A stretch of 64,000 bases of DNA from Polaribacter porphyrae. GTDB taxonomy: Bacteria > Bacteroidota > Bacteroidia > Flavobacteriales > Flavobacteriaceae. The notes below the pieces were generated by a model. That model did no database searches, was not told where the DNA came from, and saw only the letters and a list, made by a program, of their open reading frames with translations. The stretch spans positions 2,312,429 to 2,376,428 of the forward strand of contig NZ_MSCN01000001.1 in assembly GCF_002954685.1 (NCBI RefSeq), read 5' to 3'. Made by a program: the position numbers and the translations under genes. The number at the start of each line of letters is the position of its first letter. The stretch's first letter is position 1. Shown here in pieces: positions 3,031-14,816 of the stretch.

Positions 3031-3071
3031 AAAAATCCATAAAAAATTGAACATCAATTATTTATGGATTT
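3031..3071 (-). terminator. Rho-independent terminator of tRNA-fMet
   Basis: The arms AAATCCATAAA (3033-3043) and TTTATGGATTT (3061-3071) are perfect complements, with an inner ATTGA/TCAAT extension. On the minus strand the stem is followed by a T-run. It starts 7 bases past the tRNA 3' end. Confidence 0.65.
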
Positions 3072-3077
3072 ATATAG

Positions 3078-3150
<73 letters not shown>

Positions 3151-3160
3151 ATTTGGGCTA

Positions 3161-3193
3161 CAAAGATACTACACAATATAAGTATTTTCCAAA
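3161..3193 (-). promoter_or_regulatory. Promoter of tRNA-fMet
   Basis: The minus strand has TTTG at 3193-3190 and TATCTTTG at 3168-3161, separated by 21 bases. This fits the Bacteroidota -33 TTTG / -7 TAnnTTTG consensus. The -7 box lies 10 bases before the tRNA 5' end. Confidence 0.7.
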
Positions 3194-3249
3194 TTTTAAT
3201 TGAACTATTTTTTTCAAAGTTAATTTATAGCATAATCTATAAAAGAAAG

Positions 3250-3257
3250 TATCTTTG
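3250..3257 (+). promoter_or_regulatory. Candidate -7 box for era (possible leaderless transcript)
   Basis: TATCTTTG matches TAnnTTTG and ends 4 bases before the era ATG at 3262, so transcription would start at or next to the start codon. No clear -33 box is seen. Confidence 0.4.
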
Positions 3258-3261
3258 TTTT

Positions 3262-4143
3262 ATGATACATAAAGCTGGCTTTGTAAATATTATTGGTAAT
3301 CCTAATGTAGGTAAATCTACTTTAATGAATGCATTAGTAGGTGAAAAATTATCTATAATAACACCCAAGGCTCAAACTACTAGACACCGTATTTTAGGTA
3401 TTGTAAACCATGATGAATATCAAATAGTATTCTCTGATACTCCAGGAATTATAAAACCTGCTTATGAACTTCAGGCTTCTATGATGGATTTTGTTAAATC
3501 TGCACTTGAAGATGCTGATATTTTAATTTATATGGTAGAAGTAGGCGAAACAGCATTAAAGAACGAGGCATTTTTTAATAAAATTATAAATAGTAAAATA
3601 CCTGTTATTTTATTATTGAATAAAATTGATAAGTCTAACAAAGAGGAAGTTGACGAAAAAATTGCATATTGGCGTCATAAAGTACCTAATTCATTTGTAT
3701 ATGTAATTTCTGCATTAGAGAAGTTTAACGTAGAGTCTGTTTTTTATAAGATTATTGAACTACTTCCAGAAGGGCCTCCTTTTTATCCTAAAGATCAATT
3801 AACAGATAAACCTGAACGTTTTTTTGTAAATGAAAAAATTCGTGAAAAGATTTTAATGCACTATAAGAAAGAAATCCCTTATTCTGTAGAAGTAGAAACT
3901 GAAAGTTTTATTGAAGAAGATAATATAGTTAGAATTCGCTCAATTATAATGGTAGAAAGAGATACTCAAAAAGGAATTATTATAGGACACAAAGGATCTG
4001 CTATTAAAAGAGTGGGAGCAGAAGCAAGAAAAGATTTAGAACGCTTTTTTCAAAAAAAAGTTTTTATAGAACTTTATGTAAAAGTAAATAAAAACTGGAG
4101 AAGCGATAAAAATCAGTTGAAACGTTTTGGTTATCAGCAATAA
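3262..4143 (+). CDS. era: GTPase Era
   Basis: Essential ribosome-assembly GTPase that binds 16S rRNA and helps 30S maturation in the cytoplasm. G1 is GNPNVGKST, G3 is DTPG, G4 is NKID, and a C-terminal KH domain carries IIGHKGSAIKRVG. The start at 3262 gives 293 aa, the normal Era length. An upstream in-frame start would read through the opposite-strand tRNA gene and add about 66 unrelated residues, so it is rejected. Transcription is away from the tRNA, and a strong hairpin terminator follows the stop. Confidence 0.97.
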   Translation: MIHKAGFVNIIGNPNVGKSTLMNALVGEKLSIITPKAQTTRHRILGIVNHDEYQIVFSDTPGIIKPAYELQASMMDFVKSALEDADILIYMVEVGETALKNEAFFNKIINSKIPVILLLNKIDKSNKEEVDEKIAYWRHKVPNSFVYVISALEKFNVESVFYKIIELLPEGPPFYPKDQLTDKPERFFVNEKIREKILMHYKKEIPYSVEVETESFIEEDNIVRIRSIIMVERDTQKGIIIGHKGSAIKRVGAEARKDLERFFQKKVFIELYVKVNKNWRSDKNQLKRFGYQQ

Positions 4144-4191: not shown

Positions 4192-7100
4192 TTATCTTAT
4201 AATAATCTTTGATGTTCCAAAATCTACTTCTGAACTAATAATTTTCATAAATACAATTCCTGACTTTATACTAAAATTAAAATCTAAATTATTAATCCCT
4301 TTATTTAGATTTAGTTTTTTGTTCTGCAAAAGCTTACCAGTTACGTCGAACAAATACATAGTAGCTTTCGTGTCAACACTACTTAATAGAGCCGTTTTTA
4401 CATTACCCCTTGAAGGATTAGGATATGTGGTAAATGTGTTATTATTTAAACCAAAACTATTTTCATTTACTTTGGATGAAGAAACGTTAGTATAAGTTAT
4501 GTTTACAGTTGCTGTTGTAGCATCACCAGTATTATCTGTTATTGTATATACGAATGAGTCTGAAGTAAAACTAGAATTTCCTGAAGGAAAATATTGTATT
4601 CTATCATCTGAATAATCAGTTGGTGTACCATTATCGTTCACTCTAATTAATCTTCCTCCATTACTTGCTTCACTCAATTTTCCATTTCTTAATGATAACG
4701 CATTATGTGCTGTCATTGCACCATCTGAACCAAAGCTATCATTTAAAAGTACATCAATAAAAATAGGATCTTGATCAGAACCAGTACCTGTTCTTGATAT
4801 ATTAACTGTATCATCAACTGCAGTTGGTGTATCACTTGTTGGTGGTGTTACTATGCCAACTGTTATTATTACTGTTCCTTGATATTGATTTGAACCTACT
4901 GTTAAAGTATAATCGAATGTATCTACTCCTGTAAAGTTTGCTGGTGGTGTGTATAAAATCTTATCATCTGATTGATTTATTCCACTTGTTCCACCATCAT
5001 CTAATGTTAATGTTCCTCCTTGAGAAGTTGTGCCTGTTAGGTGATTTGCACTGTTTATTAACATTCTTCCTACACCTACTGTTCCAAAATTATCATTAGC
5101 TAATACATCTATTACATTATCTGTGCTATTCTCGTCTACACTTACTGTATCATCTACTGCACCCTCTAATGGTGCTACTGGGTTTACAGTTACTGTTACA
5201 GTTGCAGTTGATGCATCTCCACTTGCGTCTGTAATAGTATAATTAAATGTATCTGTTCCACTAAAGCCAACTGGTGCTGAATAGTTAAACTCATCGTCTG
5301 TAGCATCTAATGTCCCTTTATTGTCTATACTGATTAATCCTCCATTAGTACTGGCACTATTCAATGTTCCATTGGTCATCGTTAAACCGCCATCTATTGC
5401 TCCATCACTTCCAAAACTATCGTTGGCTAATACATCTATTACATTATTGGTGCTACCAAAATCTACTGTTGCTGTATCATCTACTGCTGTTGGTGTGTCA
5501 TTTGATGGTGGTGTAACTGCTCCTACTGTTACAGTCACTGTAGCTGTATAAATTGTTCCTTGACCCGCTCCAAGAGTGGTGCTATAAACGAGTATCGAAT
5601 AATCAAAAGTATCTACACCTGTAAAATTAGCTGGTGGTGTATAAGCTATCTTGTCATCAGTTTTAGTTGTTGTACCATTATCTAATATCGCTATTGTACC
5701 TCCTTGTGATGTAGTTGTTGTTGCTAGATCTTGTAAATCTTTTAAATTGATAGCTCCATGAGAATTTGATGTACTTTGGATATCATTAGCCATTACATCA
5801 ATTACATTATTTGAACTATTCTCATCAACACTTACAGCATCATCTACTGCTGGAGAAGTTACTTCCGCATTTACAGTAATAGTTACTGTAGCAGTTGCTG
5901 CATCTCCTGTTGCATCTGTTATGCTATAGGTAAAACTATCTGTTCCACTAAAACCTGTGGGTGCAGAATACAATACTACATCATCTGTATTATCTCCTGT
6001 TGTACCATTATCACTTACACTTATTAAACCTCCGTTTAAAGTAGCTGTACTTGTTTTACCATTTACTAATGTTAATGGTGCATGTGCACTTGTTGGTCCA
6101 TCTGAACCATAACTATCGTTTGCTAATACTGATATTACATTAGCTGTACTTTCAAAATCTACTGTTATTGCATCAGCTACTGCTGTTGGTGTGGTTGCTG
6201 GTGGTGTTACGTTACCAATGGTTACTGTAACCATACCTGCATCTACTCCAATAGTTTGATATTCTATTCCATCTACTTGTAAATAATAGTAAAAAGTGTC
6301 TATCCCTGTAAAGTTTGCTGGTGGGGTATAAGCTATTTTATCATCTGTTCTATCTCCTGGTGTGCCACCATCTATCAAGGTAATTAATCCTCCTTCAGTA
6401 GTAGCTGCGGATAAATGATCTACACTAAAAATTAACATTCTTCCATAACCATTTACTCCTAAATTATCATTAGCCATTACATCTATAACGTTGTCTGTAC
6501 TATTCTCTGCAACCGTTACAAAATCATCAACTGGACCTGCTAATGGTGCATCTGGATTTACAGTAACTGTTACAGTTGCTGTTGATGCGTCTCCACTTGC
6601 ATCTGTAATAGTGTAATTAAATGTATCTGTTCCACTAAAGCCTACTGGTGCTGAATAGTTAAACTCATCGTCTGAAGTATCTAACGTTCCTTTATTGTCT
6701 ATACTGATTAATCCTCCATTAGTACTGGCACTATTCAATGTTCCATTGGTCATCGTTAATCCTCCATTAATGGCTCCATCACTTCCAAAACTATCGTTGG
6801 CTAATACATCTATTACATTATTGGTGCTACCAAAATCTACTGTTGCTGTATCATCTACTGCTGTTGGTGTGTCGTTTGATGGTGGTGTAACTGCTCCTAC
6901 TGTTACTGTTACTATTCCTCTACTTCTATCTCCACTTCCATCATAAATCCAATAATCAAATGTATCTACTCCTTGAAAGTTAGCTGCTGGTGTATAACGA
7001 ATTTCTTGTCCTGGTATAATTACTGCTGTTCCTCCATTATCAGTGTTATCTGTTGTTATGAAAAAACCTTGTGTAATTAAGCCTGCTGACAAGTTTAAAA

Positions 7101-8643
7101 ATAAGTCTGTAATACCATTTTCAACGTAAGTACCATCAGAACCAAAACTATCATTTGCTAATACATCTATTACATTGTCTGTGCTATTTACATCTACACT
7201 TACAGCATCATCTACTGCTGTTGGTGTATCTGTTGATTCAGGATTTACTGTGATTGTAACTGTTGCAGTGGCTGCATTTCCTCCTGCATCAGTAATTGAG
7301 TAGGTAAAACTGTCTGTACCACTAAAACCTGATGGTGCAGTATATAATACAACATCATCTGTTTTATCATTTATTGTTCCATTATCTGAAACGCTTATTA
7401 AACCTCCATTTAATGTTGCTGTATTCTGCTTACCATTTACTAATGATAATGGTTCATGTGCTGTTGTTGGACCTTCTGTACCATAGGTATCGTTATCTAG
7501 GATTGATATTGCTTTATCTGTACTTTCAAAATCTACTGTAATAACATCATTTATTGCTGTAATTTCTTGATTAACAATAACTTCTGATACTGTTATATAT
7601 ACATAACCATACCCTACTTGGGTAAAATTATTTCCAGACTCTCCTACTGAACATAAGTAATGAAACTCATAAACTCCTGTAAAATCTGGTGCTGGTGTAA
7701 ATGATAAACTATCATCTGAAGTGTCATTTGGTGTATTATTATCTAACAGGGTTAATGTACCCATTTGATTAACAAATGGCTGGTCATAAATATTTGGTAT
7801 TTGCACAAACATTTGTCCAACACTATTATTCCCTTTATTGTCATTTGATGTTGGGTTGAATACAAAATTTGAACTGTTTTTTTCTATAGTGTAATAATCA
7901 TCTACTACTGCTGGATCGTTAGATTCTGGGTTTACAGTAACTGTTACAGTTGCTGTTGATGCATCTCCACTTGCGTCTGTAATTGTGTAATTAAATGTAT
8001 CTGTTCCATTAAAGCCTACTGGTGCTGAATAGTTAAACTCATCGTCTGTAGTATCTAATGTTCCTTTATTGTCTATACTGATTAATCCTCCATTGGTACT
8101 GGCACTATTCAATGTTCCATTGGTCATCGTTAATCCTCCATTGATTGCTCCATCACTTCCAAAACTATCGTTTGCCAAAACGTCTATTACATTGTCTGTA
8201 CTGCCAAAATCTACTGTAGATACATCATCTACTGCTGTTGGTGTGTCGTTTATTATATTAATAGTTACAGTAACATAGGTTTCTGTAGCACCTTCTTTAA
8301 AAAGATATTGGAAAGTATCAATACCTATAAAGCCTGTTGGAGGTGTGTATGCTATTTTATCATCTGTTCTTGTTTCTGTACCATTGTCAATAAGATTTAT
8401 AACTCCTCCTTGATTTGTGGGTGCTGTTAAGTGAAATTGACTAATAATTAAGAAATAACTATTCGATGTACCATTATCATTAGCTAGAACATCAATAACA
8501 TTATTATTACTATTGCTGTATACAGTAACTTGATCTGGGTTTGAAATTGATAAACTTCTAGCTTCTAAAGTATTACCAAAACTTAATATGGATAACAGAA
8601 TAAGAAGAATATTTTTTTTACTAGTTGTAATTTTACTAATCAT
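4192..8643 (-). CDS. T9SS-secreted tandem-repeat surface protein (cadherin/Ig-like repeats)
   Basis: Large secreted protein of 1483 aa, probably an adhesin. It has an N-terminal signal peptide (ILLILLSILSFG, then LEARS), about 12 tandem beta-sandwich repeats of 100-125 aa, and a C-terminal T9SS type A sorting domain (TYPNPSRGNVK to the end). Each repeat has an AVDD start, an NVIDVLANDSFGSDG-like centre with DNGT loops, and ends in a DTFNYTITD / VTVTVNP strand pair. This is the bacterial cadherin-like or tandem-95 type found in RTX and flavobacterial adhesins. Two repeat classes largely alternate: PTAVDD...TITDASGDAS and the TPPANFTGVDTFDY type. The gene is monocistronic and lies downstream of a kinase-regulator pair whose promoter shares a motif with it. 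The ligand is unknown. Confidence 0.85.
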   Translation of the reverse strand: MISKITTSKKNILLILLSILSFGNTLEARSLSISNPDQVTVYSNSNNNVIDVLANDNGTSNSYFLIISQFHLTAPTNQGGVINLIDNGTETRTDDKIAYTPPTGFIGIDTFQYLFKEGATETYVTVTINIINDTPTAVDDVSTVDFGSTDNVIDVLANDSFGSDGAINGGLTMTNGTLNSASTNGGLISIDNKGTLDTTDDEFNYSAPVGFNGTDTFNYTITDASGDASTATVTVTVNPESNDPAVVDDYYTIEKNSSNFVFNPTSNDNKGNNSVGQMFVQIPNIYDQPFVNQMGTLTLLDNNTPNDTSDDSLSFTPAPDFTGVYEFHYLCSVGESGNNFTQVGYGYVYITVSEVIVNQEITAINDVITVDFESTDKAISILDNDTYGTEGPTTAHEPLSLVNGKQNTATLNGGLISVSDNGTINDKTDDVVLYTAPSGFSGTDSFTYSITDAGGNAATATVTITVNPESTDTPTAVDDAVSVDVNSTDNVIDVLANDSFGSDGTYVENGITDLFLNLSAGLITQGFFITTDNTDNGGTAVIIPGQEIRYTPAANFQGVDTFDYWIYDGSGDRSRGIVTVTVGAVTPPSNDTPTAVDDTATVDFGSTNNVIDVLANDSFGSDGAINGGLTMTNGTLNSASTNGGLISIDNKGTLDTSDDEFNYSAPVGFSGTDTFNYTITDASGDASTATVTVTVNPDAPLAGPVDDFVTVAENSTDNVIDVMANDNLGVNGYGRMLIFSVDHLSAATTEGGLITLIDGGTPGDRTDDKIAYTPPANFTGIDTFYYYLQVDGIEYQTIGVDAGMVTVTIGNVTPPATTPTAVADAITVDFESTANVISVLANDSYGSDGPTSAHAPLTLVNGKTSTATLNGGLISVSDNGTTGDNTDDVVLYSAPTGFSGTDSFTYSITDATGDAATATVTITVNAEVTSPAVDDAVSVDENSSNNVIDVMANDIQSTSNSHGAINLKDLQDLATTTTSQGGTIAILDNGTTTKTDDKIAYTPPANFTGVDTFDYSILVYSTTLGAGQGTIYTATVTVTVGAVTPPSNDTPTAVDDTATVDFGSTNNVIDVLANDSFGSDGAIDGGLTMTNGTLNSASTNGGLISIDNKGTLDATDDEFNYSAPVGFSGTDTFNYTITDASGDASTATVTVTVNPVAPLEGAVDDTVSVDENSTDNVIDVLANDNFGTVGVGRMLINSANHLTGTTSQGGTLTLDDGGTSGINQSDDKILYTPPANFTGVDTFDYTLTVGSNQYQGTVIITVGIVTPPTSDTPTAVDDTVNISRTGTGSDQDPIFIDVLLNDSFGSDGAMTAHNALSLRNGKLSEASNGGRLIRVNDNGTPTDYSDDRIQYFPSGNSSFTSDSFVYTITDNTGDATTATVNITYTNVSSSKVNENSFGLNNNTFTTYPNPSRGNVKTALLSSVDTKATMYLFDVTGKLLQNKKLNLNKGINNLDFNFSIKSGIVFMKIISSEVDFGTSKIIIR
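5181..8251. repeat. Near-identical DNA repeats inside the adhesin gene
   Basis: Blocks of about 320-350 bp at about 5181-5513, 6556-6892 and 7930-8251 are nearly identical at DNA level, apart from scattered single changes. They encode the repeat with AINGGLTMTNGTLNSAS. The first two blocks also share a flanking GAVTPPSN-coding stretch. Such identity implies recent duplication or gene conversion and makes repeat copy number changeable by recombination. Confidence 0.85.
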
Positions 8644-8747
8644 ATTATTATTTACTTTTTAGGGTTTTAAAATCAAAAATTAATTATTTACCTAGGGGTA
8701 GTAAATATGTTTTTATCGAAGTAAGAGGAGGGGTTATTAAGATGATA

Positions 8748-8790
8748 CAAAGATACAATAATTATTAAATTTTGAACCTCATCATTAAAG
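8748..8790 (-). promoter_or_regulatory. Promoter with TTAATGA-type element upstream of the adhesin
   Basis: The minus strand has TATCTTTG at 8755-8748, about 105 bases upstream of the adhesin ATG. The element CTTTAATGATGAGG (8790-8777) lies 21 bases further upstream. The same layout is seen before two neighbouring minus-strand units. Confidence 0.5.
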
Positions 8791-8842
8791 AGGTAATTTA
8801 GTCTCATGTATGAGTAAAAATCTGTAAAATCTTAAATTAGTG

Positions 8843-9403
8843 TTAAATAAGTCCGTTTTTAACAGCATACTTTATTAGTTCTGCTGTATTTTGGCATTCT
8901 GTTTTTTCTAAAATTGCTCTTCTGTATGTATCAACAGTATGTTTACTTATAAATAACTTATCACCAATACTTTTACTACTTAACCCATTAGACATTTCTC
9001 TAATTATTTCTATTTCTCTTTCATTGAGGTTAATCTTGTATTTGGTTTTAAAACGTTGTAAAGATTCTTTAAGTTCATCTATTGAAACAGGTTTTAAAAG
9101 GTAATCGAATACGGATGCTTTTATTGCTTTTATTGCATAATGAGAGTAAGCAGAGAAGAAAATAATTTTAGTATTTGCTATTCGTTTACCAACTTCATCA
9201 GCTATTTCTAATCCAGATAATTTTGGCATTTCTACATCTAACATCACTAAATCTGGTTCTTTCTCTAAAATGTATTTTAGCCCCTCTTCTGAATCTTCAA
9301 AAACTTCTAAAACTTCAACTTCTTTAAAGTTTTCGAATAATATTTTTAATCGATTTAAAGAACGGGGTTCATCATCTATTATTACAGTTTTAATTTTGTC
9401 CAT
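8843..9403 (-). CDS. Response regulator, REC plus LuxR-type HTH
   Basis: Transcription regulator of a two-component system. The receiver domain (residues 1-120) has the acidic pair DD at 10-11, phospho-acceptor D56 in LVMLDVEMP, a switch Ser in FFSAYS and the KP motif in YLLKPVS. Residues 125-186 form a LuxR/GerE helix-turn-helix (LNEREIEIIREMSNG, then SISKHTVDTYR-like spacing). The gene begins 6 bases after the kinase stop, so both are in one operon. It is probably phosphorylated by that kinase. Candidate targets are the neighbouring secreted-protein genes (inference from shared promoter elements). Confidence 0.9.
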   Translation of the reverse strand: MDKIKTVIIDDEPRSLNRLKILFENFKEVEVLEVFEDSEEGLKYILEKEPDLVMLDVEMPKLSGLEIADEVGKRIANTKIIFFSAYSHYAIKAIKASVFDYLLKPVSIDELKESLQRFKTKYKINLNEREIEIIREMSNGLSSKSIGDKLFISKHTVDTYRRAILEKTECQNTAELIKYAVKNGLI

Positions 9404-9409
9404 AATTTT

Positions 9410-11473
9410 TTAAGTATATTTTTTAGAAAGTTTAATTTCTATTTTAGCATTGGTGCCTACTACTTTTTTATTTTCTATAATATTTTGTAGAGAATGATCA
9501 ATATCTGTTTTGAATCTTTCTTTAAATAATTTAAAAATTTTTTTCATAATTTCTAAACCATTACCTGTACCCTTGTTATAATCTATCTTACTTTTTAAAC
9601 CTTCACCATTATCATAAACATTGATAAAAAGTTTTCCTTTTTCCTTTTTAAAGGTAATATTTATTAAACCTTTTTTACCTTTTGGTAAACCATATTTAAT
9701 AGCATTTTCTACACAAGTAAATAAAGAATGTTTTGGAAACTTGATTTGTTGATTTACATCATTATCTATGTAAATATAATAATCAAACTTATGATTTAAT
9801 TTAATCTGTTGTAACTGTAAAAAGTTTTCTACATAATCTAATTCTTCTTTTATTGTTGTAGCTATTTTATCTGAATTTTCGAGAGTACTTCTCATAAATT
9901 TAGAATAACTGCCAATGAACTTATCTAATTCTAATTTATTATCAGATAATGACATTTCGCTAATCGTATTAATGGCATTGAATACAAAATGAGAATCTAC
10001 CTGATTTTTTATATTTTTTAGTTGAAGATCTAAAATATTTTTTTCAAGTTCTTTTTTCTTTTTATCTCTGTATTGCTGTCCTTTAATTATAATAAATACT
10101 ACTAATAAAATAATTAAATATATAGTTAAGTAAATAATGTATCTTAAATTATAGAATTTATTTTTATTATACTCAAAATAGCTCAAATCACTATCATGTA
10201 CAATAAAGAAATACTTTTTCCCAGAATTTGAATATTTAACTCCATAGTCTCTTAAATAGTTTCCATAAATTCTCTTTTTAGTTTTGGTTTTAAAATTTGA
10301 GCTATAAAAAACGATGTCTTTATTTATATTTTTAAATGAAACCCATTCTTTAGTTCCATCATTGTTAATGTCTATGTAGTGAATATATCCTAAATCTTGT
10401 TCTATTTTTTTTGATTTGATAATTTTAAAATTAATATCAAAAAAATTTACAATACCAGACACATTGTTATAAATAGCAAAGCTATTTTTATTTAGTTTGA
10501 TTATTGTACTATTCTTATCGTCTAAAAAACTATACTCTTTTAAAATATTGCCTTTAAAATCAATTTTAATTAACTTTGATGACATCTTTTTATCTAGAGA
10601 CTGAAACAAAAAAATTGGATAAATTCCTGACTTATCTTCTAGATAAATTGGCTTTAACCTTCCTTTTGATTTTAAATCTATTGGACTAAATGTAAATTTT
10701 AAATTAGAATCTAAAATGAATAACCATGACGTTTTATCAGATTTTTTTATTTGAATTTTATCTAGTTCATTAGCGGTAGCAACGCTTTTTGATAATAGTT
10801 TATAATTACCGTTTTTTAAATCTATAACATCATTAAAATAAATTGTATTAATAAGATGATTTGATTTTTCTACTTTACCTGTTGTGTAATTGTATTTATA
10901 AATATTTCTTGGCTTTAAACCAAAACCAGCACTTATACTAAAAACAATCTCATTTATTTTTAGTATTTTTTTTAACTTATTCTCTCCTTGACTAGCTGAA
11001 AATTTATAAAAACCTTTATACACTCCAATTTTATCAACAAAAATTTTCTCTTTCCAAATTCCTTTATCAACAAAATGTTCATGGATATTTAAAAAAATAG
11101 AATCGTTTGATTTGGTTATTAAATATAATTCTTTAAAGCCATTTTTATTAATGTCTTGAAACCAATAATTACTGTGTTTAGCAAATTCTGAAGAAAGGTT
11201 ATATTGATCTATTATAGCACCATTTTTATCTTGAAGAATATAAGAAGCTCTAGATGCTTGTTTACTTAAAAAAGTGATTTTTTCACTCTTTTTATCATTA
11301 TCAATATCCTCAAAAATTACTTTCTTACTGCTCGCTAGTTTTTCTTTAGATATAAAGTTTATTTCATATTCCTTAAGTAAATCTGGCGTTAATGTAATAA
11401 CAAAAAATGCTATAATTATAGAAATTATATAAGGGTTTAGTAGAAAAAACTTAATTCTATTAATTAGCTCCAA
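9410..11473 (-). CDS. LytS-type sensor histidine kinase with propeller-like extracytoplasmic sensor
   Basis: Membrane kinase of 687 aa. One transmembrane helix near residues 12-29 and a second near 445-465 (IIYLTIYLIILLVVFIII) enclose a periplasmic region of about 410 aa. That region has several DxDxD-like loops (FEDIDNDKKSE, FQDINKNGFKE, YIDINNDGTKE) resembling FG-GAP or EF-hand calcium loops in beta-propellers. A coiled coil leads to the His_kinase (PF06580-type) domain with H495 in SHFVFNAINTI. The HATPase domain has CVENAIKYG, YDNGEGL and GTGNGLEIM. It precedes and probably phosphorylates the LuxR-type regulator. The ligand is unknown. Confidence 0.88.
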   Translation of the reverse strand: MELINRIKFFLLNPYIISIIIAFFVITLTPDLLKEYEINFISKEKLASSKKVIFEDIDNDKKSEKITFLSKQASRASYILQDKNGAIIDQYNLSSEFAKHSNYWFQDINKNGFKELYLITKSNDSIFLNIHEHFVDKGIWKEKIFVDKIGVYKGFYKFSASQGENKLKKILKINEIVFSISAGFGLKPRNIYKYNYTTGKVEKSNHLINTIYFNDVIDLKNGNYKLLSKSVATANELDKIQIKKSDKTSWLFILDSNLKFTFSPIDLKSKGRLKPIYLEDKSGIYPIFLFQSLDKKMSSKLIKIDFKGNILKEYSFLDDKNSTIIKLNKNSFAIYNNVSGIVNFFDINFKIIKSKKIEQDLGYIHYIDINNDGTKEWVSFKNINKDIVFYSSNFKTKTKKRIYGNYLRDYGVKYSNSGKKYFFIVHDSDLSYFEYNKNKFYNLRYIIYLTIYLIILLVVFIIIKGQQYRDKKKKELEKNILDLQLKNIKNQVDSHFVFNAINTISEMSLSDNKLELDKFIGSYSKFMRSTLENSDKIATTIKEELDYVENFLQLQQIKLNHKFDYYIYIDNDVNQQIKFPKHSLFTCVENAIKYGLPKGKKGLINITFKKEKGKLFINVYDNGEGLKSKIDYNKGTGNGLEIMKKIFKLFKERFKTDIDHSLQNIIENKKVVGTNAKIEIKLSKKYT

Positions 11474-11824
11474 AAATCTAAAGATTTACAATATTGTTAT
11501 ACTCATTTCTATTTATCATAAAAAAATTATATCATTTGTTAATTTTTAGTAATAAAAGGTATTGTTTACTGAAAAGAACTTCAACTAAACTATATAAAAA
11601 TATAAAAATCGTACACCTCATTAATGAGAGTATTTATTACTATTTGTAATATTTATAAACCCTCATTTTTAGTTTTATGTAGTTTTTTATCAATAAAAAT
11701 ATTATAAATGAGTCCTTTTAAATTTAATACAAGATAATACAATTTAAAGTTGCAGTAGATTTAAGGGTATAGTTAATTCATTCTGATATTTAATTGTTTT
11801 AAATATCATTTTTAAGATTAAGAT
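11474..11824. other. Intergenic region (351 bp) upstream of the kinase gene
   Basis: I see no gene here. It holds a candidate promoter for the kinase operon (11585-11628) and a perfect inverted repeat GATATTTAA/TTAAATATC (11785-11807) just past the end of the DUF1566 gene. That hairpin lacks a clear T-run on the minus strand, so its role as terminator is uncertain. Confidence 0.5.
11585..11628 (-). promoter_or_regulatory. Promoter with TTAATGAG element upstream of the kinase operon
   Basis: A perfect palindrome CTCATTAATGAG (11617-11628) lies 24 bases upstream of TAGTTTAG (11592-11585, minus strand), which is one mismatch from TAnnTTTG. The layout matches those at 8748-8790 and 13326-13369. 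Confidence 0.4.
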
Positions 11825-12793
11825 TTAAAAAGAACGAATAGCTCTAACACGATTAGAAATATTTTTTAATACAGTAGATTCTTGCCCATTAGCGAAGTTT
11901 AAAACCCAAACTCTACTACTAGTTTCTTCAGTAGAACTCCAATACACATCATTTGTAAATGCTTCACCACCATTAGTTATTGCAGTAGCATTTATAGCAG
12001 ATAAGTTTTGAAATATTAAATTAAGCTCATATTTACTGGGTAAATACCAATCACCATACATTATACTATTTTCTGTTATTTCTAATTCGTTACATAATCT
12101 AGCAGCATACAAATTATCATCATCGCCAATTGATGCATGAGTAGCAATTATAATCGAATTATTGGCTTTACCAGAAAACAAACCATTACCCTTTGCATGT
12201 GTATTACCAAAAGTACCCGCAAACCATTTTGTAGCATTACTTTGATTTATTTTTGAGCAAACCAAACCATGTTGTTCAGTTTCATCAACCCAAAAAACAA
12301 CTCCACCATGTGCAAAATCACCTACTTTATATGTTTTTATAGCATTTGATTTTGGTTTATTCGTTAAATCATCATAATTTCCACTAAAAACATTTTCTGC
12401 TTTTTTTGCATGTAATGCATAAGGTACACTCAATAATTGACTAGTACCAGAAATGGTATAGTTAGTACCACCATCAAGATCTATTTCTGTTTTTACATAA
12501 TATGTATTTGCTCCCCAATCTATTGTAGAAAAATTACCCATTACAACAGAACCAGTACCAATTTCTAACGAAACCAACCCATTAATATTTGTTGTTGGAG
12601 TATGAGTTTCTGAATAAATAACTGTACCTGAAACAGATGTGCTTAAGATACTAAGTTTAAACCCAACTGCCTTATTACCAACTATATTTTGATCTGCATT
12701 TCTAACAACAGCTTGAAAACTTATTTTTTCTGGGGTTTGACCATACATTACAAGCCCAATTCCTAAAAATAACAAAAGTGTAATTTTTTTCAT
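11825..12793 (-). CDS. Secreted protein with C-terminal DUF1566 (Lcl-like) domain
   Basis: A 322-aa protein with a signal peptide (LLLFLGIGLVMYGQ). Residues 20-130 resemble an N-terminal region common in flavobacterial secreted proteins (ISFQAVVRN... LLSVPYALHAKKAE). Residues 160-322 match DUF1566 in style: GGVVFWVDETEQHGLV, GDWYLPSKYELNLI, YWSSTEETSSRVWVLNF and a VRAIRSF end. The biological role is unknown; surface or matrix association is plausible. It starts one base after the stop of the upstream T9SS protein, so the two are co-transcribed. Confidence 0.8.
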   Translation of the reverse strand: MKKITLLLFLGIGLVMYGQTPEKISFQAVVRNADQNIVGNKAVGFKLSILSTSVSGTVIYSETHTPTTNINGLVSLEIGTGSVVMGNFSTIDWGANTYYVKTEIDLDGGTNYTISGTSQLLSVPYALHAKKAENVFSGNYDDLTNKPKSNAIKTYKVGDFAHGGVVFWVDETEQHGLVCSKINQSNATKWFAGTFGNTHAKGNGLFSGKANNSIIIATHASIGDDDNLYAARLCNELEITENSIMYGDWYLPSKYELNLIFQNLSAINATAITNGGEAFTNDVYWSSTEETSSRVWVLNFANGQESTVLKNISNRVRAIRSF

Positions 12794-12794
12794 T

Positions 12795-13265
12795 TTATTT
12801 TTTTAAAATTTTAAATGTTTTTAATGGTTTATCCTTACCAATTACTTTTAAAAGATAGATTCCTGTAGAATATTTTGAAATATCTATTGTTGTTTTTTTA
12901 AGATTAATGCTTCCTTTTTTAATAGCTATTCCTTTAATATCATACAAATGATATTTCAATTGCTTTAGACTTGTATTTTCTAAAATCAAATTTATACTAT
13001 TTTGTATAGGATTAGGATAAACTACTGCCTTCAATACCAAATCTTTAAAATCTGAATTGCTCAAAACAAAAAGTTCCACACTTTGCTGAATACCTTCTAA
13101 AGAAGAACCATTAGAACTTGAGTTTGTAGTATAAAAAACTTGCCCCACAGAATAACTAACACTCCCATTACCTGTTGCCTCTTCACCTGAAGATAGTGTA
13201 GCTTTTTGGCTAAAAGTACCCAAAGCAGAAATAAGAAAGAAAATGAAAACTAGTTGTTTTTTCAT
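12795..13265 (-). CDS. Small T9SS-sorted secreted protein
   Basis: A 156-aa protein with a signal peptide (FIFFLISALGTFSQ), a short GNGSVSYSVGQVFY segment and a C-terminal T9SS type A sorting domain starting at VVYPNPIQNSI and ending KTFKILKK. Most of the chain is signal plus sorting domain. The middle part (about 50 aa) is a motif often seen in Bacteroidota before a DUF1566 neighbour. It is the first gene of a two-gene unit with the DUF1566 protein. Function unknown. Confidence 0.8.
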   Translation of the reverse strand: MKKQLVFIFFLISALGTFSQKATLSSGEEATGNGSVSYSVGQVFYTTNSSSNGSSLEGIQQSVELFVLSNSDFKDLVLKAVVYPNPIQNSINLILENTSLKQLKYHLYDIKGIAIKKGSINLKKTTIDISKYSTGIYLLKVIGKDKPLKTFKILKK

Positions 13266-13325
13266 ATTTGCATTATGCTTTTAGTTGCTTTTAAAACTTC
13301 AATATCATCATTTATTTTAAAAGGG

Positions 13326-13369
13326 CAAAATTAAAATAAAAATACAACCTGTTTACACTCATTAATAAT
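13326..13369 (-). promoter_or_regulatory. Promoter with TTAATGAG element upstream of the T9SS/DUF1566 pair
   Basis: The minus strand has TAATTTTG (13333-13326), about 60 bases upstream of the ATG. ATTATTAATGAGT (13369-13357) lies 23 bases upstream of that box. Confidence 0.45.
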
Positions 13370-13466
13370 ACTTCTAGTACTGTTAAATAAGATGTGAAAA
13401 AATATTTTAAATCACTTTAATAAAGAAACCATACTCACTTTTACGCATTTTTCTAGATGCAATTCT

Positions 13467-13474
13467 TACATTTG
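13467..13474 (+). promoter_or_regulatory. -7 box of der promoter
   Basis: TACATTTG matches TAnnTTTG and lies 19 bases before the der ATG. No clear -33 TTTG was found. Confidence 0.5.
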
Positions 13475-13493
13475 CACTAAATTTCACAGTATA

Positions 13494-14816
13494 ATGAACA
13501 GTATTATTGCCATTGTTGGAAGACCTAATGTAGGTAAATCTACTTTTTTTAACAGATTAGTTCAAAAAAGAGAAGCTATTGTAGATGCTGTTAGTGGTGT
13601 TACAAGAGATAGACACTATGGAAAATCTGATTGGAATGGAAAAGAGTTTTCGATAATAGATACAGGAGGTTATACTATAGGTTCTGATGATATTTTTGAA
13701 GAAGAAATTAGAAAACAAGTAGCACTTGCTATAGATGAAGCTGATATTATTGTTTTTGTGGTTGATGTTGAAGATGGCATTACACCTATGGATGCTGAAG
13801 TTGCCAAAATTTTAAGAAAAGTAAAAAAGCCAATTTTTATTGCTGTTAATAAAGTTGATAATGCTATGAGAGCAGCTAACGCTGTTGAATTTTACAATTT
13901 AGGTTTAGGAGATTATCATACAATTTCATCAATAAATGGTAGTGGAACAGGAGATTTACTAGATGCAATCACAAAAAAAATACCTGATATAGAAATCGAA
14001 GAATCATCAGAAGAAAGTAAAGAAGAACAATTGCCAAGATTTGCTGTGGTTGGTAGGCCAAATGCTGGTAAATCTTCATTTATTAACGCATTAATTGGCG
14101 AAGATAGAAATATCGTAACCAATATTGCAGGTACTACAAGAGACGCAATAGATACCAAATACAATAGATTTGGTTTCGATTTTAATTTAGTTGATACAGC
14201 TGGAATTAGGAAAAAATCAAAAGTAAAAGAAGATTTAGAGTTTTATTCTGTAATGCGTGCTGTACGTTCTATTGAGTATTCTGATGTAATTATTCTTGTA
14301 GTTGATGCCACTCGTGGGTTTGAAGGACAAGATCAAAACATTTTTTGGCTTGCAGAAAAAAACAGAAAAGGTGTAGTTATTTTAGTTAACAAGTGGGATT
14401 TAATAGAAAAAGAAACCAATACCATGCGCGACTTTAAGGCTAGAGTAACAAAAGAAATTGAGCCTTTTACAGATGTACCAATTGTATTTATTTCTGCACT
14501 AACAAAACAAAGATTATTTAAAGCAATAGAAACTGCTGTTGATGTTTTTAAAAATAGAAAAAATAGAATATCTACTAGTAAGTTTAATGATACTATGTTA
14601 GAGATTGTAAAACATAATCCACCACCTGCAATTAAAGGTAAGTTTGTAAAAATTAAATATTGTATGCAACTACCTACTCCTACTCCACAGTTCGTGTTTT
14701 TTTGTAACTTACCCCAATATGTAAAAGATCCTTACAAGCGTTTTGTAGAAAATAAACTAAGAGAAATTTATAACTTTTCTGGTGTACCAATCACTATCTA
14801 TTTTAGACAGAAATAA
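13494..14816 (+). CDS. der: GTPase Der (EngA)
   Basis: Ribosome-assembly GTPase for the 50S subunit, with two G domains in tandem. Domain 1 has [14 protein letters not shown] and NKVD. Domain 2 has [14 protein letters not shown] and NKWD. A C-terminal KH-like domain follows. At 440 aa it has the normal family length, and the ATG directly precedes the first G1 strand ([12 protein letters not shown]). It is a single gene under its own promoter, about 9 kb from era, the other ribosome-assembly GTPase here. Confidence 0.97.

Follow-up and report, generated by a model that had tools for sequence, protein, structure and literature searches.

We analysed a 64,000-nt stretch (the window) of the 3.9-Mb genome of Polaribacter porphyrae (NZ_MSCN01000001.1, positions 2,312,429-2,376,428), in which a response regulator, a linked sensor histidine kinase, an adhesin-like surface protein and a pair of proteins carrying, respectively, an Lcl_C domain and a type IX secretion system (T9SS) signal are encoded on the minus strand; the inverted repeats preceding these genes are candidate operators for the regulator (Table 1). 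The two domains of the regulator (PF00072, E 9.5e-23; PF00196, E 2.3e-14; both over the curated cut-offs) place it in the NarL/FixJ type; it retains the phosphorylation residues Asp10, Asp11, Asp56, Ser84 and Lys104, and its recognition helix reads SKHTVDTYRR. The match of the adhesin to a T9SS C-terminal signal falls just under the curated cut-off. In a low-confidence model of the kinase (mean predicted local distance difference test, pLDDT, 51), a long strand-rich region is flanked by two predicted helices. This region contains three Asp-rich loops, DIDNDKKSE, DINKNGFKE and DINNDGTKE, which, as far as a model of such confidence allows, we take to resemble calcium-binding FG-GAP or propeller repeats.

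Table 1. Genes and predicted regulatory features of the locus, in window coordinates.
Feature	Coordinates	Strand	Remarks
Adhesin-like large surface protein	4192..8643	-	1483 residues; Big_9/cadherin-like repeats; likely target
Predicted -7 box, adhesin	8748..8755	-	TATCTTTG
Predicted weak proximal operator, adhesin	8781..8792	-	CTCTTTAATGAT, 2 mismatches; 25 bp before -7 box
Predicted distal operator, adhesin	8803..8814	-	12-mer CTCATACATGAG, 16-mer TACTCATACATGAGAC; 47 bp before -7 box
Response regulator	8843..9403	-	Receiver PF00072 + LuxR/GerE helix-turn-helix PF00196
Sensor histidine kinase, linked to regulator	9410..11473	-	PF06580; HATPase_c match just under cut-off
Predicted weak -7 box, kinase-regulator operon	11585..11592	-	TAGTTTAG, 5/6 match (one mismatch)
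Predicted operator, kinase-regulator operon	11617..11628	-	Perfect palindrome CTCATTAATGAG; 24 bp before -7 box
Lcl_C (DUF1566) domain protein	11825..12793	-	Possible target
Small protein with T9SS C-terminal signal	12795..13265	-	PF18962; possible target
Predicted -7 box, T9SS/Lcl_C pair	13326..13333	-	TAATTTTG
Predicted weak operator, T9SS/Lcl_C pair	13358..13369	-	ATTATTAATGAG, 2 mismatches; 24 bp before -7 box

Palindromic sites and their distance to the -7 box

The preliminary description had proposed three minus-strand elements (8777-8790, 11617-11628 and 13357-13369), constantly spaced from TAnnTTTG-like boxes, as an activator site lying over the -33 region. All three are present at these positions. 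Their short core, ATTAATGAG, does not stand out as a motif: the window contains 44 copies with up to one mismatch (43.1 expected), and the whole-genome search that had been called for yielded 96 exact copies against 74 for the reversed pattern, which is about the level of chance, so that on this motif alone the finding would fail. By comparing relatives, we recognised the true unit as a 12-bp core, CTCATNNATGAG, extended to TACTCATNNATGAGTA. The predicted operator is a NarL-type 7-2-7 palindrome, TACTCAT-NN-ATGAGTA, made of two inverted 7-bp half-sites; the commonest bases among the 24 listed sites are TACTCAT-TA-ATGAG, followed by T or G and then by A, T or G, with the leading T absent in eight. 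Drawn in this way, the adhesin element of 8777-8790 turns out to be out of register: it overlaps the weak proximal site (8781-8792), 22 bp downstream of the strongest adhesin site (8803-8814), which had been overlooked. The element at 13357-13369 does contain a copy, which has two mismatches and is the weakest of the sites.

The constant spacing was upheld: between the 12-mer and the -7 octamer there are 25 bp at the proximal adhesin site and 24 bp before both the kinase-regulator operon and the T9SS/Lcl_C pair. Operators occupy two places before TAnnTTTG, one proximal (24 bp) and one distal (46 bp). When 11 promoters, three from the window and eight from six relatives, were aligned on the operator, matches to TAnnTTTG peaked 46 bp from the distal site, equivalent to 24 bp from the proximal one, where 55 of 66 letters agreed; the runner-up position had 33, and 2000 shuffles reached at most 41/66. 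Seven promoters of relatives alone, a set omitting G135 of the similar pair of genomes G009/G135, scored 36/42, attained in 0 of 2000 shuffles. The P. porphyrae adhesin promoter, with its 47 bp, scores only 2 at the 46-bp place. A scan for the sigma-70 consensus found fewer promoter-like sites (35) than shuffles did (44.7). In the available portion of PMC9723704, the TAnnTTTG box of Flavobacterium psychrophilum is placed at -12 to -5; if this position applies here, the proximal operators would be centred at about -42.5 (-43.5 for the adhesin) and the distal adhesin operator at about -65.5 from the predicted start sites. This would place the proximal sites immediately upstream of the -33 element, whereas the first description had them over it.

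Five perfect 12-mers were listed in the whole genome, two of them at this locus (8803-8814 and 11617-11628); of the three elsewhere, two fall within reading frames and one is intergenic. This intergenic copy (L101, about position 1501) is part of a perfect inverted repeat, CCCACTCATAAATGAGTGGG, probably a hairpin of its own, flanked by genes that we took by eye for those of enolase and the carbamoyl-phosphate synthase small chain. The composite of 12-mer, 24 bp and TAnnTTTG showed no excess at up to three mismatches (66 places in the genome, 75 in the control). Among the composite matches listed, six have no more than two mismatches. The kinase-operon promoter ranks first with a single mismatch; the T9SS promoter has two, and the remaining four, also with two, overlap reading frames of at least 90 residues. 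An initial composite, TTAATGAG plus 19-25 bp plus TAnnTTTG, was dropped as evidence, having matched three places in the genome and three in the control; one of its two non-local places precedes a reading frame and the other overlaps one.

We regard it as extremely improbable that the sites merely reflect a chance likeness among AT-rich promoters. The near-chance counts of ATTAATGAG, and those of the composite at up to three mismatches, would fit such an origin, but conservation in relatives is far over that in shuffles, and the two composite matches at this locus are the only ones among the top six that do not overlap a reading frame. Chance is already contradicted for 8803-8814 and 11617-11628, and possible for 13358-13369 alone.

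Palindromes and regulator genes in other genomes

Of 166 genomes of the genus, 12 contain a regulator orthologue at E 1e-30, as do three of 397 sampled from the family at the stricter E 1e-35, with P. porphyrae included in both counts; in 395 genomes sampled from the phylum, the search at E 1e-27 returned P. porphyrae alone. We compared the neighbourhoods in 11 relatives from the genus, two other members of the family and one genome at order level, which, together with Chlorobiota, Calditrichaeota and Bacteroidales loci from a named collection, make up 17 loci other than our own. Stretches of 600 bp flanking the regulator on each side contain the palindrome CTCA-N4-TGAG in 11 of these 17 loci (13 sites), or in 12 when counting G229, whose site had been cut by an over-long start; in 500 dinucleotide shuffles, the average was 0.13 loci and the maximum 2. 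The palindrome beside the regulator reaches as far as Chlorobiota and Calditrichaeota. Among 80 loci fetched by regulator similarity, the five with the GerE helix pattern (40 kb; two of them G463 and G063 again) contained six palindromes, in four of the five loci, versus four palindromes in the 75 loci without that pattern (776 kb).

Exact copies of CTCATTAATGAG occur in 51 of the 166 genus genomes, with 14 copies in the 12 regulator-bearing genomes and 52 in the other 154. Of the 13 copies in P. porphyrae, G009, G129, G135, G111, G015 and G040, 11 are intergenic before this gene set and two are in reading frames; the single copy of G041 is inside a frame, and G102, G023, G031 and G174 have none. 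We examined 25 of the 52 copies from regulator-less genomes, and 22 of them were in frames of at least 100 residues; one of the three outside such frames belongs to G130. Sites also occur away from the regulator. In G015, two copies 22 bp apart stand in tandem at ~105 kb from the regulator and ~80-100 bp before an adhesin paralogue of 1637 residues (Big_9/cadherin/T9SS tail). The second tandem pair of G111 lies ~8 kb from the regulator and ~280 bp before a gene for a 7TM-DISM LuxR-type regulator; behind this pair (L234, 6526-9374), that gene is followed by an Lcl_C gene and a very long frame. A separate observation concerns the Bacteroidales locus (L131, 865-3825), where a distant relative of the regulator has the same palindrome, before a Fib_succ_major protein.

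These distributions also bear on the idea that some other, unlinked regulator binds the palindromes, or that they act as RNA hairpins or terminators behind the regulator gene, which we consider very unlikely. It could draw on the position of the site in several relatives, since G009, G129 and G135 each have only one exact CTCATTAATGAG genome-wide, which begins 42 bp past the regulator stop, and on G130, without a regulator at E 1e-30, which has an intergenic full 16-mer 25 bp before the TAnnTTTG box TATTTTTG (L214, about position 1501). However, the palindrome accompanies the regulator in other contexts (G102, G463, G229 and Bacteroidales) and precedes the distant adhesin paralogue of G015; six of seven sites, in 60-base windows and with no shuffle control, fold at -3.7 to -8.6 kcal/mol, the seventh (-26.3 kcal/mol) being an overall-palindromic tandem pair, and a consensus scan found no terminator-like site in 8000-14000, with 1.1 expected.

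Kinase absence, receiver residues and recognition helix

At E 1e-30, the kinase was found in only two of the 166 genus genomes, P. porphyrae and G102, and a search in named genomes confirmed none. In ten genus relatives, no kinase was seen beside the regulator. Seven of these kinase-less loci (G009, G015, G023, G041, G111, G129 and G135) keep the order T9SS, Lcl_C, regulator and adhesin-like gene; in G031 the first three are followed by two small proteins without adhesin match, in G174 only T9SS, Lcl_C and regulator were seen, and the contig of G040 contains the regulator alone, these last three genomes being 75-81% complete. As in the window, six of the ten loci adjoin der (G009, G015, G031, G111, G129 and G135), two of them (G015 and G129) with era on the other side too; those of G023 and G041 lie elsewhere. 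In G102, G463 and G229, kinase and regulator occur together in other gene contexts.

The loss of the kinase is paralleled in the receiver. In an alignment of 15 regulators, the phosphorylatable Asp is present in all five kinase-linked proteins and in none of the ten kinase-less ones, which have Gln (eight) or Glu (two). The second residue of the acidic pair has also been lost in these ten, and is Asn in the kinase-linked G463. Asp56 is kept by all seven others in a set of 17 rows, including the Calditrichaeota regulator, for which the short stretch examined showed no kinase. The ten relatives, having lost both the phospho-Asp and the partner kinase, thus contain atypical regulators, and the window protein is not one. 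A branch with support 93/97, which the program did not star, separates these ten from the other regulators; the P. porphyrae regulator stands next to them, and its identity to them is 47-64% in the receiver and 63-79% in the GerE domain; for G102, the corresponding values are 71% and 65%. The simplest reading of these sequences is that the kinase was lost once in the relatives and that P. porphyrae would represent the older state, the alternative being that the kinase was gained in P. porphyrae. The regulator of the kinase-less relatives very likely works independently of phosphorylation.

Presence of the palindrome also follows the recognition helix. All 12 loci whose regulator has Thr159 (helix HTVDTYRR or HTVDTHRR; G229 counted) contain the palindrome, versus none of the five with Lys159 (G063, G174, G023 and G041) or Ser159 (G031, which has degenerate copies), although these counts are not independent by descent. 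The residue at position 159 is presumably able to read DNA bases; a search of the literature for published contacts of this recognition-helix residue gave nothing usable. Seven of the ten kinase-less relatives keep the operator type, one of them in degenerate form, and several have it ahead of their adhesin genes. The other three (G174, G023 and G041) carry a different motif, TAYYATTTRTAGTA, at the proximal place; in each, its centre is 30.5 bp ahead of a -7 octamer, which is exactly the proximal geometry. In G174, the octamer behind TAYYATTTRTAGTA differs from the consensus at one place, as do two further octamers elsewhere there. As TAYYATTTRTAGTA was derived after viewing its three sequences and is not rare (37 places in 12 genomes, versus 52 for the reversed pattern), we attach weight only to its position.

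We give an even chance to a broader reading of this series, in which a two-component system at one adhesin locus would have turned into a one-component system through a single kinase loss, with loss of the phospho-Asp, drift of the receiver and a fixed operator and promoter geometry; in the branch where Thr was replaced by Lys, with TAYYATTTRTAGTA at the same place, operator and reader would have changed together.

Predicted mode of regulation

We consider it highly probable that the encoded LuxR/NarL-type regulator binds the palindromes and activates the adhesin gene and its own operon, with no need of phosphorylation in the relatives. A shared activator site in three promoters, the LuxR-type regulator as its binder and autoregulation had all been proposed in the preliminary description, and are supported, at the level of sequence, by the co-occurrence with the regulator, the fixed distance to the -7 box and the correlation with the recognition helix. 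As we envisage it, the operators would be read by the response regulator encoded at 8843-9403, with a dimer on TACTCAT-NN-ATGAGTA just upstream of the -33 element (centre ~-42.5) and, at the adhesin promoter, a second dimer 22 bp further up (~-65). The bound regulator would recruit RNA polymerase, and the site would thereby activate. The predicted targets are the adhesin gene, the kinase-regulator operon (autoregulation) and, with less confidence, the T9SS/Lcl_C pair. In P. porphyrae, the linked kinase presumably controls the regulator, in answer to some signal, by phosphorylating Asp56.

Several observations weigh against this interpretation. Across the genome, the 12-mer with up to one mismatch occurs at 56 places, versus 89 in the control, so the palindrome is not in excess genome-wide. 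Five of the 17 loci lack the palindrome, the Chlorobiota copy sits within the kinase reading frame, and G130 has its intergenic copy despite having no regulator at the threshold used. At promoter level, the -7 box of the kinase operon is weak, the G015 paralogue promoter scores 3/6 at the expected place, and the operator of the T9SS gene was not seen in four relatives searched with exact short patterns. Furthermore, the operator registers and the 24/46-bp rule were set after the sequences had been seen, and the intergenic regions of the close relatives G009 and G135 are not independent.

The known systems are compared here as far as the consulted excerpts of the cited papers describe them. The NarL dimer binds 7-2-7 sites, with one at -38 to -47 at yeaR and tandem sites centred at -44.5 and -77.5 at ogt (PMC4549865, PMC7419079). 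Like Escherichia coli NarL, our regulator has a receiver and a DNA-binding output domain, and its predicted operator consists of inverted heptamers two bases apart, with the TAC...GTA ends of the engineered NarL site TACCCCTAAAGGGGTA, present as a single site just upstream of the promoter or as tandem sites. Unlike in NarL sites, the inner bases are TCAT instead of CCCT and the tandem centres are 22 bp apart instead of 33; also, the promoter is of the Bacteroidota type and the predicted targets are surface proteins.

These comparisons touch on whether the regulator might bind and repress, keeping the adhesin off until a signal arrives, which we think unlikely. The sign of regulation is not given by operators alone, and NarL represses frdA from near-start sites, one of them 7-2-7 (PMC4549865, in the excerpt consulted). 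Nevertheless, the P. porphyrae adhesin and kinase promoter regions contain no copy with up to two mismatches that overlaps or lies past a -7 box, and the fixed places at 24 and 46 bp suit an activator, as with NarL at yeaR and ogt in the consulted parts of PMC4549865 and PMC7419079.

The joint loss of kinase and phospho-Asp has a parallel in Campylobacter CosR/CosS, where only some species have the kinase and the regulators of those without it have lost their phospho-Asp (PMC3938529); unlike for CosR, an OmpR-type regulator, the operator here can be traced through the kinase loss and the target genes remain linked. Together, the NarL sites and the CosR/CosS precedent, as described in those excerpts, suggest a mechanism of a known kind. 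Streptomyces BldM is an orphan, atypical NarL/FixJ-type regulator that binds a 16-bp palindrome (PMC4125116), although this palindrome (TCACcCgnncGgGTGA), the organism and the targets differ. The motif of the response regulator LiaR of Streptococcus mutans also contains a 16-bp inverted repeat but, unlike what we propose here, that repeat alone is not bound, a 25-bp motif being needed (PMC4447274).

A narrow literature search, covering few subscription journals, found no published description of this regulator subfamily, its operator or its targets. For a Bacteroidota regulator family adjoining T9SS-secreted surface proteins, the locus would provide a concrete operator together with its set of targets. 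It also offers a natural series within one genus, largely at one locus, in which the kinase is present or absent and the recognition helix is of two kinds. Two questions, the phosphorylation independence of a response regulator and the co-change of regulator and site, are thereby open to simple binding assays.

An Rfam scan of the window at the gathering threshold returned one tRNA and nothing else. The listed frame 3064-4143 crosses this tRNA gene (3078-3150), which is on the opposite strand; by homology to a relative, the Era start is ~66 codons downstream of the listed start of this frame.

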